A stretch of DNA of 33,615 bases from Myxococcota bacterium (GTDB taxonomy: Bacteria; Myxococcota_A; UBA9160; SZUA-336), in assembly GCA_035498015.1 (NCBI GenBank), contig DATKAO010000013.1, positions 1-33,615 of the forward strand, written 5' to 3'. Both the position numbers and the translations under genes were made by a program. The notes below the pieces were generated by a model. That model worked only from the letters and a program-made list of their open reading frames with translations. It had not been told where the DNA came from and did not search any database. Shown here piece by piece: positions 4,710 through 29,533 of this stretch (the stretch's first letter is position 1; every line of letters starts with the position of its first letter).

Positions 4710-5632
4710 TTCGCCTGGCGCTCGGGCGCGCGGCAGCCGCCATCCCCGTGCTCTGGGCGGTGGCCACGCTGACGTTCCTGTTGCTGCGCTTCCTGCCCGG
4801 CGGGCCGTTCGACAAGGAGCGCAGCCTGCCGCCCGAGATCATGCGCAACCTCGCGCACCGCTACGCGCTCGACCGGCCCGTGAGCGAGCAGTACGCCGAC
4901 TATCTCGAGCGCGTGGTGCGCGGCGACCTCGGGCCCTCGTACAAATACCTGGGCCGCGACGTGGCCGACATCGTGCGCGACGCCATGCCCGTGTCACTCG
5001 AGCTCGGCGGAGCGGCCTTCGTGCTCTCGCTCGCGGGCGGGATCGCGCTGGGGCTGGCCGCGGGCGCGCGGCGCGGCAGCGCGCTGGACCAGCTCGTGAC
5101 CCTGGGGTCACTCGTGGGCGTGTCGGCGCCGAGCTTCGTGATCGGCGCCGGTCTGATCCTCTCGTTCGGCCTGGCGCTGCGCTGGCTGCCGGCCGGTCTC
5201 TGGGAGGGGCCGGCGCACGTGATCCTGCCGGCGCTCACGCTGGCGGCGCTGCCCATGGCCTACGCGGCCCAGCTCACGCGCACGCAGGTGCTCGAGGCGC
5301 TGGACCAGGACTGGGTGCGCACGGCGCGCGCGCTCGGCGTGCCCGAGGGGCGCGTGCGCCGGCGGCACGTGCTGCGCAACGCGCTGCTCGCCGTGATGAC
5401 TTACTCGGGCCCGCTGCTCGCCAACCTGCTCACCGGCTCGTTCGTGGTGGAGCACATCTTCGCCGTGCCGGGCCTGGGCCGCTTCTTCGTGACCGCCGTC
5501 GCCAACCGCGACTACCCGCTCGTGCTGGGAGTCACTCTGGTGTACGCGGCCTTCGTGGTGCTCGCCAACCTGCTGGTCGACCTGGCCTACGCCTGGGCCG
5601 ACCCGCGCATCCGCATCGGGGGCGGCCGGTGA
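4706..5632 (+). CDS. oppB: Oligopeptide ABC transporter permease, OppB type
   Basis: A 308-aa integral membrane permease (BPD_transp_1). The first transmembrane helix (LGRAAAAIPVLWAVATLTFLL) is followed by the OppB/DppB N-terminal signature FLPGGPFD, a periplasmic segment (LDRPVSEQYADYLERVVRGDLGPSY) and further membrane segments. The EAA coupling loop is clear: RTARALGVPEGRVRRRHVLRNA. The C-terminal VEHIFAVPGLGRFFVTAVANRDYPLV is diagnostic of the OppB branch. GTG at 4706 overlaps the oppA stop as GTGA, which fixes the start. It pairs with OppC to form the translocation channel. Confidence 0.95.
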   Translation: MIRLALGRAAAAIPVLWAVATLTFLLLRFLPGGPFDKERSLPPEIMRNLAHRYALDRPVSEQYADYLERVVRGDLGPSYKYLGRDVADIVRDAMPVSLELGGAAFVLSLAGGIALGLAAGARRGSALDQLVTLGSLVGVSAPSFVIGAGLILSFGLALRWLPAGLWEGPAHVILPALTLAALPMAYAAQLTRTQVLEALDQDWVRTARALGVPEGRVRRRHVLRNALLAVMTYSGPLLANLLTGSFVVEHIFAVPGLGRFFVTAVANRDYPLVLGVTLVYAAFVVLANLLVDLAYAWADPRIRIGGGR

Positions 5633-20747: not shown

Positions 20748-21410
20748 ATGCTCGACTACATCCTGGGCTCCAGTCCGATCGTCTCTGCGGTGCTTTTGAT
20801 CCTGATCCTCGCGTCGGTCTCGTCGTGGGCGATCATGATCATGAAGTTCCGTGAGTTCCGCGCCGCGGAGCGAGACACCGAAGACTTCGTCGAGGCCTAC
20901 CTCGAGAGCCCGCTCGAGAACGCATACGAGGTGGCGCGCAAGCACCCGTCGAGCCCGCTCGCCACGGTGTTCCGCGCGGGCTACACGGAGCTCGCTCGGC
21001 TCGAGAAGCTGCAGGCCGGCAGCAACCGGGTCACTCGCGACCAGGTCGAGGGCGTGATCAGCCGCCTGGGCTGGATCCGCGGCGAAGAGGTGCACCGGCT
21101 CGAACGCGGGCTCTCCTTCCTGGCCACGATCGCGAGCTCGGGCCCGTTCGTGGGCCTGTTCGGCACCGTCGTGGGCATCATGAATTCGTTCCAGCAGATC
21201 GGCGCCATGCAGTCGGCCAGCCTGGCGGTGGTCGCGCCGGGCATCGCCGAGGCGCTGGTCGCCACCGCCTTCGGGCTCGCGGCCGCGATCCCGGCCGCGG
21301 TCGGATACAACTACACGAGCGCGCGCCTGAACCGGCTCGCGGCCCGGCTCGAGACCTTCGGCGCCGAGTTCGCCGAGGTCCTGCGCCGCACGGCGCACCG
21401 CGCGGCATGA
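20748..21410 (+). CDS. tolQ: Tol-Pal system protein TolQ
   Basis: A 220-aa MotA/TolQ/ExbB-family proton-channel protein with three membrane helices: near 8-30 (SPIVSAVLLILILASVSSWA), near 125-150 (FLATIASSGPFVGLFGTVVGI) and near 160-190 (PGIAEALVATAFGLAAAIPA). The TVVGIMNSFQQIG loop and GIAEALVATAFGL motif are diagnostic. With TolR it uses the proton motive force to energise TolA during outer-membrane constriction at division. Its adjacency to tolR, tolA and tolB separates it from ExbB. The stop overlaps the tolR ATG (ATGA). Confidence 0.95.
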   Translation: MLDYILGSSPIVSAVLLILILASVSSWAIMIMKFREFRAAERDTEDFVEAYLESPLENAYEVARKHPSSPLATVFRAGYTELARLEKLQAGSNRVTRDQVEGVISRLGWIRGEEVHRLERGLSFLATIASSGPFVGLFGTVVGIMNSFQQIGAMQSASLAVVAPGIAEALVATAFGLAAAIPAAVGYNYTSARLNRLAARLETFGAEFAEVLRRTAHRAA

Positions 21411-25742: not shown

Positions 25743-26786
25743 GTGGCGCTCATCCTCGCGCTCGAGAGCTCGTGTGACGACCTGGCCGCGGCGCTCGTGC
25801 GCGACGGCACGCAGGTACTCGCGTCGGTCGTGCAGAGTCAGGATCGCCTGCATGCGCCCTACGGCGGCGTGGTGCCGGAGCTCGCCAGCCGAGACCACGT
25901 CCGTCACCTGTATGGCGTGCTGGGCGCGGCGCTCGAGCGCGCCGGTGTGCCGTTGGGCTCGGTCGACGCGATCGCGTGCACGGCGGGGCCGGGACTGATC
26001 GGGTCGCTCTTGGTCGGCGTGTCGTTCGCCAAGGCGCTGGCCTACCGGCTGGGCAAGCCGCTGGTCGCCGTGCACCACATCGAGGGCCACCTGGCCTCGG
26101 CGCGGCTGGGTGACCCCCCGCTGGGGTTCCCGTTCCTGGGCTTCGTGGTCTCTGGCGGCCACACGCAGCTCTACCGCGTGACGACACTTTCTCGTGTAGA
26201 GCTCCTGGGCGAGACGCGCGACGACTCGGCGGGCGAGGCGTTCGACAAGGTGGCCAAGCGGCTGGGCCTGGGCTACCCGGGCGGGCGCGAGGTCGACCTG
26301 GCCGCGCGCCGCGGCCGCGCGGGGCGCTTCCGCTTCCCGCGCCCGATGCTGCGCGAGCCGGGCCTCGAGCTGTCGTTCTCCGGGCTCAAGACCGCGCTGG
26401 CGCTCGAGGCCGAGCGCATCGAGGGTGACTCGACCCACGGACTCACTGCGCAGGACGTCGACGACCTGTGCGCCTCGTTCCAGGAGGCCGCGGTCGACGT
26501 GCTGGTCGAGAAGGCGCGCCGCGCGCTCGAGCAGACCGGGCTCTCGCGCCTGGCGCTGGTGGGCGGCCTGGCCGCGAACGCGCGCCTGCGCGAGCGCATG
26601 GCCGAGCTCGCGCGCGAGCGCGGCATCGAGACTCACTTCCCGCCCATCGCGCTCTGCACCGACAACGCGGCGATGATCGGCGCGGTCGCCGACGGCATGC
26701 TGCGCGAGGGCCGTGTCGCCGCGCTCGACCTCGAGGCGTTCTCGCGCATCCCCGTGGGCGCCGCGCTGCCCCCGGGCGCGCCATAG
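25743..26786 (+). CDS. tsaD: tRNA N6-adenosine threonylcarbamoyltransferase TsaD
   Basis: A 347-aa ASKHA-fold enzyme that transfers threonylcarbamoyl to A37 of ANN-decoding tRNAs (t6A). Motifs are LALESSCDDLAAALV (usually ETSCDET), the iron ligands in VHHIEGHLASA (His112, His116), VSGGHTQLY, DDSAGEAFDKVAKRLGLGYPGG and SFSGLKTAL. The C-terminal LALVGGLAANARLRERM and LCTDNAAMIGAV are also present. The first catalytic block is slightly degenerate (SCDD for SCDE), which is tolerated in some homologues. GTG at 25743 starts three bases after dksA. Its TAG stop overlaps the proposed AUA start of rsmA. Confidence 0.95.
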   Translation: MALILALESSCDDLAAALVRDGTQVLASVVQSQDRLHAPYGGVVPELASRDHVRHLYGVLGAALERAGVPLGSVDAIACTAGPGLIGSLLVGVSFAKALAYRLGKPLVAVHHIEGHLASARLGDPPLGFPFLGFVVSGGHTQLYRVTTLSRVELLGETRDDSAGEAFDKVAKRLGLGYPGGREVDLAARRGRAGRFRFPRPMLREPGLELSFSGLKTALALEAERIEGDSTHGLTAQDVDDLCASFQEAAVDVLVEKARRALEQTGLSRLALVGGLAANARLRERMAELARERGIETHFPPIALCTDNAAMIGAVADGMLREGRVAALDLEAFSRIPVGAALPPGAP

Positions 26787-27607
26787 CCTCGGCGCGCCAG
26801 AAGCTCGCCGCGCACGGGCTCGCGCCCTCGAAGGCGCGCGGCCAGAACTTCCTGCGCCGGCCCGAGGTCGCGGCGCAGATCGTCGAGAAGCTCGGCGTGC
26901 GCGCGACCGACGCCGCGCTCGAGGTCGGCCCCGGCACCGGTCAGCTCACGCGCGCGCTGGCCGCGGTCGCGCGGCGCACGCTCGCGCTCGAGGTCGACCG
27001 CGGCCTGGTCGCCCTGCTCGCCGCCGAAGGCGAGCTGCCGGGCTACGTCGAGGTGCGGCTGGCCGATGCGCTCGAGGCCAACTGGCCGGCGCTCGCGCGC
27101 GAGCTCTGCAAGCCCGTGGTCCTGGTCGGCAACCTGCCGTACTCGATCGCCGGGCGGCTCTTGGGAGACTGGCTGGTGCCCGACTCTCCGTTCCGGCGCA
27201 TCGGCTGCATGCTGCAGCGCGAGCTCGCCGACCGGGTGCTGGCGGCGCCCGGCAGCGAGGCCTACGGCACGCTCAGCGTGTACGCGCGGCTCTGGTTCAC
27301 CGGCGAGCGCCTGCTCGAGCTATCGCGCGAGGAGTTCTCGCCGCGCCCGCGCGTGCGCTCGACCTTCCTCGCGCTCACCCCGCGGCCGACACCGCCGCGT
27401 GTCGCCGACGTCGAGACACTCCGCCGGCTGGTGCGCGCCGCCTTCGGCCAGCGCCGCAAGCAGCTCAAGCGCGCCCTCGCGCTCGAGTTCCCGCAGGCCG
27501 GGGCGGCGCTCGCCGCGACGCGCATCGACCCGACCCGCCGGGGCGAGACGCTCGACGAAGGCGAGTTCGCGGCGCTGGCCGATGCGCTGGCAGTTGCCGG
27601 TTCCTGA
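26783..27607 (+). CDS. rsmA: 16S rRNA adenine(1518/1519)-N6-dimethyltransferase RsmA (KsgA), proposed AUA start
   Basis: A 274-aa (usual size) SAM-dependent methyltransferase. Motifs with AUA as residue 1 are GQNFL at 20-24, the SAM-binding LEVGPGTG at 46-53, LALEVDRGL, the catalytic NLPYSIA at 117-123, RELADRVLAAPGSEAYG and the C-terminal RRKQLKRAL. It dimethylates two adjacent adenines near the 3' end of 16S rRNA. The start is unusual. In this frame there is no ATG, GTG or TTG between a GTG deep inside tsaD (26468) and a GTG at codon 39 that would lose GQNFL. ATA at 26783 forms an ATAG overlap with the tsaD stop, in the same way as the GTGA junctions elsewhere. Confidence 0.88.
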   Translation: MASARQKLAAHGLAPSKARGQNFLRRPEVAAQIVEKLGVRATDAALEVGPGTGQLTRALAAVARRTLALEVDRGLVALLAAEGELPGYVEVRLADALEANWPALARELCKPVVLVGNLPYSIAGRLLGDWLVPDSPFRRIGCMLQRELADRVLAAPGSEAYGTLSVYARLWFTGERLLELSREEFSPRPRVRSTFLALTPRPTPPRVADVETLRRLVRAAFGQRRKQLKRALALEFPQAGAALAATRIDPTRRGETLDEGEFAALADALAVAGS

Positions 27608-27626
27608 AGCCCGCCGCGCGCGGAAG

Positions 27627-27656
27627 TTGACACTCCGGCCGGATCCCCCTTAGCCT
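27627..27656 (+). promoter_or_regulatory. Sigma-70-type promoter for the panBCD operon
   Basis: A perfect -35 TTGACA (27627-27632) and TAGCCT (27651-27656) are separated by 18 bp (17 if TTAGCC is used), 211 bp before panB. It starts 20 nt after the rsmA stop. Confidence 0.55.
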
Positions 27657-27662
27657 CTTCTG

Positions 27663-27867
27663 CGCAGCGAGTCCGCATCGATTGAGCCCGGAAGCTTGGA
27701 TCTCGAACGAGACCGAGACCGAAGGCGCGATGTTCGATGCGGTCGGTCCCGAGGCCGAAGGCCGAAGATCGGGCCGTCCGCAGTCCGCACGCGAAGGGCG
27801 CCTTCTGATCTCGTCGCAACGACGATCAGGGCGCTCGATTCGTTTGTGGCTCGCCGGAGGGCCCCCC
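27663..27867 (+). promoter_or_regulatory. Structured untranslated leader of panBCD (candidate RNA regulatory element)
   Basis: About 205 nt with no convincing gene and several inverted repeats. TCTC-GAAC-GAGA lies at 27701-27712. An outer arm GGTCCCGA (27745-27752) with TCGGGCC (27769-27775) encloses GGCC-GAA-GGCC (27753-27763). GAAGG-GCG-CCTTC is at 27793-27805. CTGATCTCGTCG-CAA-CGACGATCAG (27805-27829) is a 10-bp stem with a two-base bulge. The panB ribosome binding site GGAGG is at 27856-27860. The panB frame stays open back to TTG 27682, but the extra 62 residues resemble no PanB. I do not recognise a known riboswitch class. Confidence 0.4.
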
Positions 27868-28677: not shown

Positions 28678-29533
28678 GCCGCGGCTGATCCGCAGCACGG
28701 CGGAGCTCTCCCGCTGGTCCGAGGAGCAGCGGGTCATGGGCCGGCGCATCGCGCTGGTGCCCACGATGGGCGCGCTGCACGAGGGGCACGTCTCGCTCGT
28801 GCGCATCGGCTACAACCACGCCGACCGCGTGGTGGTGTCGATCTTCGTGAACCCGACCCAGTTCGGGCCGGCCGAGGACTTCGCGCGCTACCCGCGCGAC
28901 CTGGCGCGCGACCTGGAGCTCCTGCGCAAGGCCGGCGCCGACGTGGTGTTCGCCCCGCCCGTGGAAGAGATCTATCCCGCGGGTGACTCGACCTGGGTCG
29001 AGGTCGAGCGGCTCACCTCGGGGCTGTGCGGCCGCAGCCGGCCCGGTCATTTCCGTGGAGTCACCACGGTGGTGGCGCGGCTGTTCAACGCGGCTCGCCC
29101 GCACGTGGCGGTGTTCGGCGAGAAGGACTACCAGCAGCTCGCGGTCGTGCGGCGCATGGCGCGCGACCTGGCGTTCGGGATCGACGTGATCGGCGGGCCG
29201 ATCGTGCGCGAGCCCGATGGGCTGGCCATGAGCTCGCGCAACGCCTTGCTCTCGCCGCGCGCGCGCCAGCAGGCCACCGCGCTGCACGCCGCGCTGCACG
29301 AGGTGCGCGCCGCCCTGCGCGCCGGCGTGCGCGACGCCGCGGCGCTGTGCGCGGTTGCGCGCCAGCGCATCGAGAAGGAGCCGCTGGCCGAGCTCGACTA
29401 CGTGGAGCTGGTCTCCTCCGACACGCTCGAGCCGCTGCGCGAGCTGCGCGGCCCGGCGGTGCTGGCGCTCGCGGTGCGCTTCGAGGGCACGCGGCTGATC
29501 GACAACACGCTGCTCAACGGAGAAACACTCTGA
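28661..29533 (+). CDS. panC: Pantothenate synthetase (pantoate-beta-alanine ligase)
   Basis: A 290-aa enzyme of the HIGH-type nucleotidyltransferase superfamily that joins pantoate and beta-alanine with ATP. Motifs are [16 protein letters not shown] (HEGH at 40-43), [65 protein letters not shown] and [17 protein letters not shown] (the KMSKS-like loop). The C-terminal dimerisation part is [11 protein letters not shown] at 28661 lies inside the panB 3' end in another frame. Its stop overlaps the panD ATG as TGATG. Confidence 0.97.

Follow-up and report, generated by a model that had tools for sequence, protein, structure and literature searches.

The rsmA gene of a Myxococcota bacterium and several relatives very probably starts with AUA in a four-base overlap with tsaD

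According to our analysis, the window, by which we mean the whole stretch of 33,615 nucleotides analysed (contig DATKAO010000013.1), carries on its forward strand two genes that share four bases. The first, tsaD (25743 to 26786), encodes a subunit of tRNA threonylcarbamoyladenosine transferase, starts with GTG, ends with TAG at 26784 to 26786, and scores 405.2 bits against TIGR03723, whose cut-off is 296.1. The second, rsmA/ksgA (26783 to 27607), scores 203.7 bits against TIGR00755 (cut-off 171), and its product is by profile score and motifs a clear candidate for the 16S rRNA A1518/A1519 dimethyltransferase RsmA/KsgA. The GQNFL, E-x-GPG-x-G-x-LT, and NLPY stretches, which we take to be functional motifs of this family, are intact and conserved in the alignment of the order to which the window genome belongs, and the closest-matching solved RsmA structure covers residues 6 to 269 of the window protein. 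Downstream of rsmA, a gap of about 260 bases (27608 to 27867), to which no gene was assigned, precedes a panB-like gene, and a panD-like gene begins near 29533; both were named by eye.

Direct reading of the rsmA frame gives 274 codons from the ATA at 26783 to 26785 to the TGA at 27605 to 27607. Within the window, no ATG, GTG, or TTG occurs in this frame between a GTG at 26468 to 26470, which lies 315 bases upstream, deep within tsaD, and is not a credible start, and a GTG at 26897 to 26899 (codon 39, +114). The latter is an implausible start since its use would remove GQNFL, which occupies codons 20 to 24 (26840 to 26854) and is unchanged in all seven sequences of the order that were aligned. 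The only other near-cognate codons over the same range are CTG at −129, CTG at +69, and ATC at +96. A mechanical open reading frame call places the start at GTG 26468, 315 bases too early. The ATA is part of an ATAG at 26783 to 26786, in which the rsmA start and the tsaD UAG stop overlap by four bases, the arrangement typical of termination-reinitiation pairs; according to the ends in the mechanical list of open reading frames, similar junctions lie nearby, namely, GTGA at 5629, 7281, 14995, and 21814 and ATGA at 21407. A preliminary description of the window had reported the absence of canonical codons from 26468 to codon 39, the 274-codon frame whose GQNFL a start at codon 39 would cost, and the resemblance to neighboring overlaps, all of which are borne out by the sequence, the alignment, and the frame ends.

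The order comprises 11 genomes, the window genome being designated G000, and rsmA with its junction was found in eight of them. The three others (G003, G004, and G005) are all 73 to 75% complete, and a weak rsmA match in G004 (E value of 3.1e-4, 29% identity) was left out of the counts. ATA occupies the aligned start position in four of the eight junctions (G000, G001, G002, and G007), always in an ATAG overlap with the tsaD stop; these genomes span three genera, G000 and G001 sharing one. A fourth genus, represented by G008, has ATC at this position. Relatives with ATG or GTG at the junction, which the preliminary description had set against an AUA start, do exist in three of the eight cases, with ATG in an ATGA overlap in G009, ATG in G010, and GTG one codon earlier in G006, whereas four have ATA and one has ATC; a weak start is thus not required for rsmA in this order. 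In G007 an in-frame TGA stands 6 bases (two codons) upstream of the ATA, so that no upstream start is possible there, which makes this genome the case hardest to explain away. Alternatives of poor quality are present in two genomes: G002 also has a GTG two codons upstream of its ATA, just 1 base past its GGAGG, and G008 has a CTGA overlap whose CTG lies at +9, as well as GTG codons 43 and 58 codons ahead of GQNF. The window genome, G001, and G007 have no ATG, GTG, or TTG at any credible start. We also observed that ATC in G008 (locus L006) follows GGGGAGG at a spacing of 7 bases, that its genus mate G010 has ATG there with the same spacing, and that in both genomes the tsaD stop forms the CTGA overlap 9 bases inside rsmA. 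The comparison of relatives agrees with the proposal of the preliminary description, and AUA, or AUC in G008, is very probably the start codon of rsmA.

The branching within the order is poorly resolved. G000 and G001 are firmly grouped in both the RsmA and the TsaD trees, and the TsaD tree leaves the remainder open. In the RsmA tree, G007 is joined to the GTG-using G006 (88/86), a grouping that implies more than one change of start codon.

In the four ATA genomes, tsaD closes with the codon CCA, CGA, CAA, or AAA, whose third base, always A, supplies the A of ATAG, so that the other bases have changed and the A has stayed. At third positions of tsaD, A makes up only 2.0% in G000, 3.2% in G001, 4.3% in G002, and 7.9% in G007, and since it is so rare there and yet recurs, the presence of ATAG at four of the eight junctions appears to be more than chance. 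These frequencies yield no P value, since shared ancestry weakens their product, and the tsaD TAG stop by itself accounts for part of the conservation of T and A. Among called genes ending in TAG, an A just before the stop was found in 2 of 6 in the window, 4 of 43 in G001, 4 of 47 in G007, and 0 of 19 in G010, counts that include tsaD where present.

The 24 bases upstream of the AUA in the window genome (26759 to 26782) hold no Shine-Dalgarno match; their predicted pairing with the 16S rRNA tail reaches −2.5 kcal/mol, a value equaled or exceeded in strength by 88% of tsaD segments. The corresponding values are −6.2 kcal/mol in G001, −11.6 in G002, −14.5 in G007, and −12.0 in G008, and −12.0, −5.3, and −8.9 in the canonical-start relatives G010, G009, and G006. 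A search for 16S rRNA in the window genome gave no match. G008 has a standard 16S tail, and the 3′ end of its 16S rRNA, inspected for the GGAA target in h45, reads GGGGAACC ... GGATCACCTCCTTT. A special initiator tRNA or a tRNA-Ile with a UAU anticodon was considered and set aside, as none was present among the 43 tRNAs matched in the window genome, all of which were examined; this set is incomplete (Ile-GAU, Trp, and Ala-UGC are absent from it), so that a tRNA may have been missed. Three tRNAs with a CAU anticodon were found, one of which shows initiator features by eye.

How unusual the absence of a canonical start is was assessed by surveys that count the canonical codons available rather than proven starts. 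In the order, three of the eight rsmA loci (those of the window, G001, and G007) have no canonical codon between −45 and −10 codons of GQNF; G002 counts as canonical only through the GTG one base past GGAGG, and G008 only through the GTG 43 codons ahead of GQNF. Elsewhere in the window's phylum none of the 131 loci read lacks one, with 0 of 23 in the class and 0 of 30 in the phylum over the same interval and 0 of 78 further phylum loci between −45 and −7. These loci are not a random sample, as they represent the best 30 matches per search and, for the further phylum set, 80 of the matches listed. The counts leave out three loci in which no GQNF-like match was found, L205 from 31 phylum loci and L295 and L300 from the 80 further ones; read by hand, all three have ATG or GTG. 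Among 24 loci from named records, two lack a canonical codon in the survey, L045 from Binatia and L057, and the latter was rejected as an AUH case because its N-terminus is short and an ATG at −9 makes it ordinary. In a tsaD control, none of 84 loci lacked a canonical codon; these were kept from 116, the others having no tsaD match, N-terminus, or motif.

Two further scans looked beyond these loci. The pattern of ATAG before GGNCARAAYTTY matched in 17 of the 90 genomes of the class and in 58 of the 377 of the phylum, and the only matches judged by eye to be rsmA starts were those of the four genomes of the order. One candidate, an rsmA in G362 with ATA at the aligned place, was discarded, a GTGA overlap 27 bases upstream providing a canonical start. 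A homology-free scan with a retrained gene caller covered 400 called genes of at least 300 bases in 433 kb of G000, G001, G007, and G010 and flagged nine, three of which are the three ATA rsmA genes that the set held. The six others look by eye like late ATG starts or probable shadow open reading frames, the least clear being those at 123667 in G007 and 23303 in G010. General use of AUA at ATAG overlaps was rejected: the 433 kb of the four genomes contain six such overlaps, of which three are rsmA and three, all in G007, have ATG, GTG, or TTG alternatives close by. As a separate observation, a gene judged by eye to be cysteine-desulfurase-like in G010 (contig C48, about 82523, loci L133 to L138 joined; VYLDYQATTPCDP near its start) carries a CTG that forms a CTGA overlap; with canonical codons lacking over the interval from −150 to +60 around it, this CTG is a candidate start.

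A second lineage came to light when the alignment of the order was used to search named records and found JAJDXX010000036.1 (L045), labeled Binatia, whose rsmA is without a canonical start. In the Binatia order to which it belongs, 32 of 35 genomes have rsmA matches, and we read the junctions of the 30 loci returned from these 32 genomes. ATC is the predicted rsmA start codon in three (L217, L219, and L220, from G377, which is the genome of L045, and from G382 and G384, 89% and 87% identical to G377), while the same codon is ATG in 21 relatives and, in the remaining six, GTG or ATG occupies that codon or the next. An in-frame TGA lies seven codons ahead of the ATC in all three, and a GAGGA ends 7 bases upstream of it, with modest pairing (−5.6, −6.1, and −5.6 kcal/mol). 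A CTG three codons downstream is a less likely start because of its greater distance from GAGGA. The tsaD TGA ends upstream and does not overlap rsmA, and the retention of ATG by 21 relatives of the same order argues for a separate origin of this ATC, not forced by a stop codon. On one 94-kb contig of G382, the homology-free scan flagged a single gene of 84, namely, rsmA; all four AUH rsmA genes present in the 400- and 84-gene scans were thus flagged.

From these observations we infer AUA use, low output, coupling to tsaD, and upkeep by selection. The ordinary initiator tRNA would read the AUA; in the window genome, ribosomes terminating at the overlapping tsaD UAG would restart one base back on it, and in relatives with a Shine-Dalgarno sequence direct initiation could add to restarts derived from tsaD. 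Coupling, which the preliminary description had proposed together with low output, is plausible and, given that the 24 upstream bases contain no Shine-Dalgarno match, nearly required in the window genome, which probably relies on ribosomes finishing tsaD. It does not appear to be a general rule, since pairing is strong in G002, G007, and G008, which could initiate rsmA directly, and since the Binatia AUC starts lie outside any stop overlap. The weak start would keep RsmA low, and its output would depend on how strictly ribosomes reject non-AUG codons. We consider the explanation as a whole, an AUA-initiated rsmA of low output, fed by tsaD in the window genome and dependent on stringency, to be likely on the sequence evidence.

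The mechanism has partial precedents. In Staphylococcus aureus, AUA starts of infC and ccpN have been mapped, and in poor medium reporters of ccpN (AUA), citZ (AUA), and cvfC1 (AUU) reached about 10% of the AUG level, that of ccpN rising to as much as 30% when the medium was rich (PMC13009471). The conserved AUA of ccpN resembles that of rsmA but is directed by an extended Shine-Dalgarno sequence (PMC13009471), and none is present at the window junction. The infC gene, which starts with ATT in E. coli and ATC in Streptomyces and autoregulates (PMC5472188), is similar in that it has an AUH start and a product that influences which start codons the 30S subunit selects (PMC5472188, PMC13009471); rsmA differs by encoding an rRNA methyltransferase whose feedback is only putative. 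The comparison with infC drawn in the preliminary description fits in principle, but in the window's order infC itself is apparently GTG started. No AUU start was seen among its 10 loci in the order, where GTG occupies the same place in six and is the first canonical codon in two more, one of the remaining loci having been missed by the filter and one being partial. The classic infC AUH start thus seems to be absent from this order; loci L147 and L149 to L153 share an apparent GTG start and a conserved N-terminus, mostly MGFRRRRWR. Streptomyces sigR, with a GTC start repressed by IF3, likewise has a misannotated, noncanonical start that limits the amount of protein made from one gene of a translationally coupled pair; it is different in using GTC, in being the first gene of its pair, in encoding no ribosome factor, and in having been demonstrated experimentally (PMC5472188). 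Termination-reinitiation systems share the four-base stop/start overlap, although the part of their description available to us lists NTG starts, with ATT only for −5 overlaps, and there makes no mention of ATA in ATAG (PMC10666635). Chlamydia ksgA, which begins with GUG or UUG, also has a weak start, and a change from GUG to AUG strengthened its effect in E. coli, but both codons are canonical alternatives (PMC2807437). Our literature searches, conducted among open-licence papers, found no publication that describes rsmA/ksgA as starting with AUA or AUC.

The pattern hints that a weak start holds RsmA low and perhaps makes its level self-adjusting. In an extension of the AUA-start explanation, which we regard as possible though somewhat doubtful, scarcity of RsmA would make 30S subunits laxer, AUA or AUC initiation would rise, and more RsmA would be made; methylation of h45 by RsmA would tighten start-codon selection, as IF3 acts through the AUU of infC. 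Since loss of RsmA is reported to raise non-AUG initiation, RsmA in short supply would, through a weak start, boost its own synthesis. Loss of KsgA reportedly increased such initiation in a bacterial reporter, a result from O'Connor 1997, and the proteins raised in E. coli and Haloferax volcanii KsgA deletions are enriched for non-AUG starts, although the authors call the E. coli proteome data variable (PMC7897474). Loss of both h45 methylations is described as relaxing initiator selection in a region that is an IF3 binding site (PMC7949028), a site that KsgA overlaps (PMC9032327). Within our data, two distant lineages have AUH starts at rsmA, and the scanned stretches yielded no other gene with clear support for one. 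The canonical codons available at 131 of 131 rsmA loci elsewhere in the phylum speak against such feedback being general. Autogenous control of E. coli ksgA has reportedly been found by van Gemen and co-workers. That rsmA is, after infC, a second gene whose own AUH start senses start-codon stringency, the loop having arisen separately at least twice (in the window's order and in the Binatia clade), is a conjecture that we would hold with slightly more reserve.

Drift into a stop-codon trap would do without regulation: an ATGA overlap such as that present in G009 would pass through ATAA to ATAG, silently for tsaD, and the resulting weak start would be tolerated if little RsmA is needed. The step from TGA to TAA would yield AUA for free, E. 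coli ksgA is nonessential (PMC9032327), and the same facts, bar the repeat in Binatia, are explained with less. However, neither in G008 nor in the three Binatia genomes does the ATC start sit in such a trap, and one-base changes at other N-terminal codons would yield ATG, GTG, or TTG. We rate this account, too, as possible but tentative. A start at a canonical codon within tsaD, or a frameshift fusion from tsaD, would be compatible with the window, where the rsmA frame is open up to GTG 26468, but it is highly improbable and was rejected, given the TGA in G007, the lack of a canonical codon within 330 bases upstream in G001, and last tsaD codons that differ and form no common slippery heptamer by eye. 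An assembly or sequencing error at 26783 to 26786, conceivable in a contig of a metagenome-assembled genome, is very unlikely and receives the least credence of all, since the same ATAG stands in three other genomes, G001, G007, and G002, whose RsmA is 68%, 55 to 56%, and 77% (over the 35 residues present) identical to that of the window, the latter two genomes matching the separately deposited records JABSQV010000023.1 and DAOVBF010000109.1.

An rsmA very probably initiated at AUA or AUC would add to the few characterized bacterial starts of this kind, which gene finders assuming ATG, GTG, or TTG miss. The rsmA gene stands out because its product acts on start-codon selection, the same step on which its weak start would depend. 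If the feedback is true, quality control of the 30S subunit would be tied to start-codon stringency in one loop, and the influence that RsmA methylation is reported to have on non-AUG initiation would gain a possible use.
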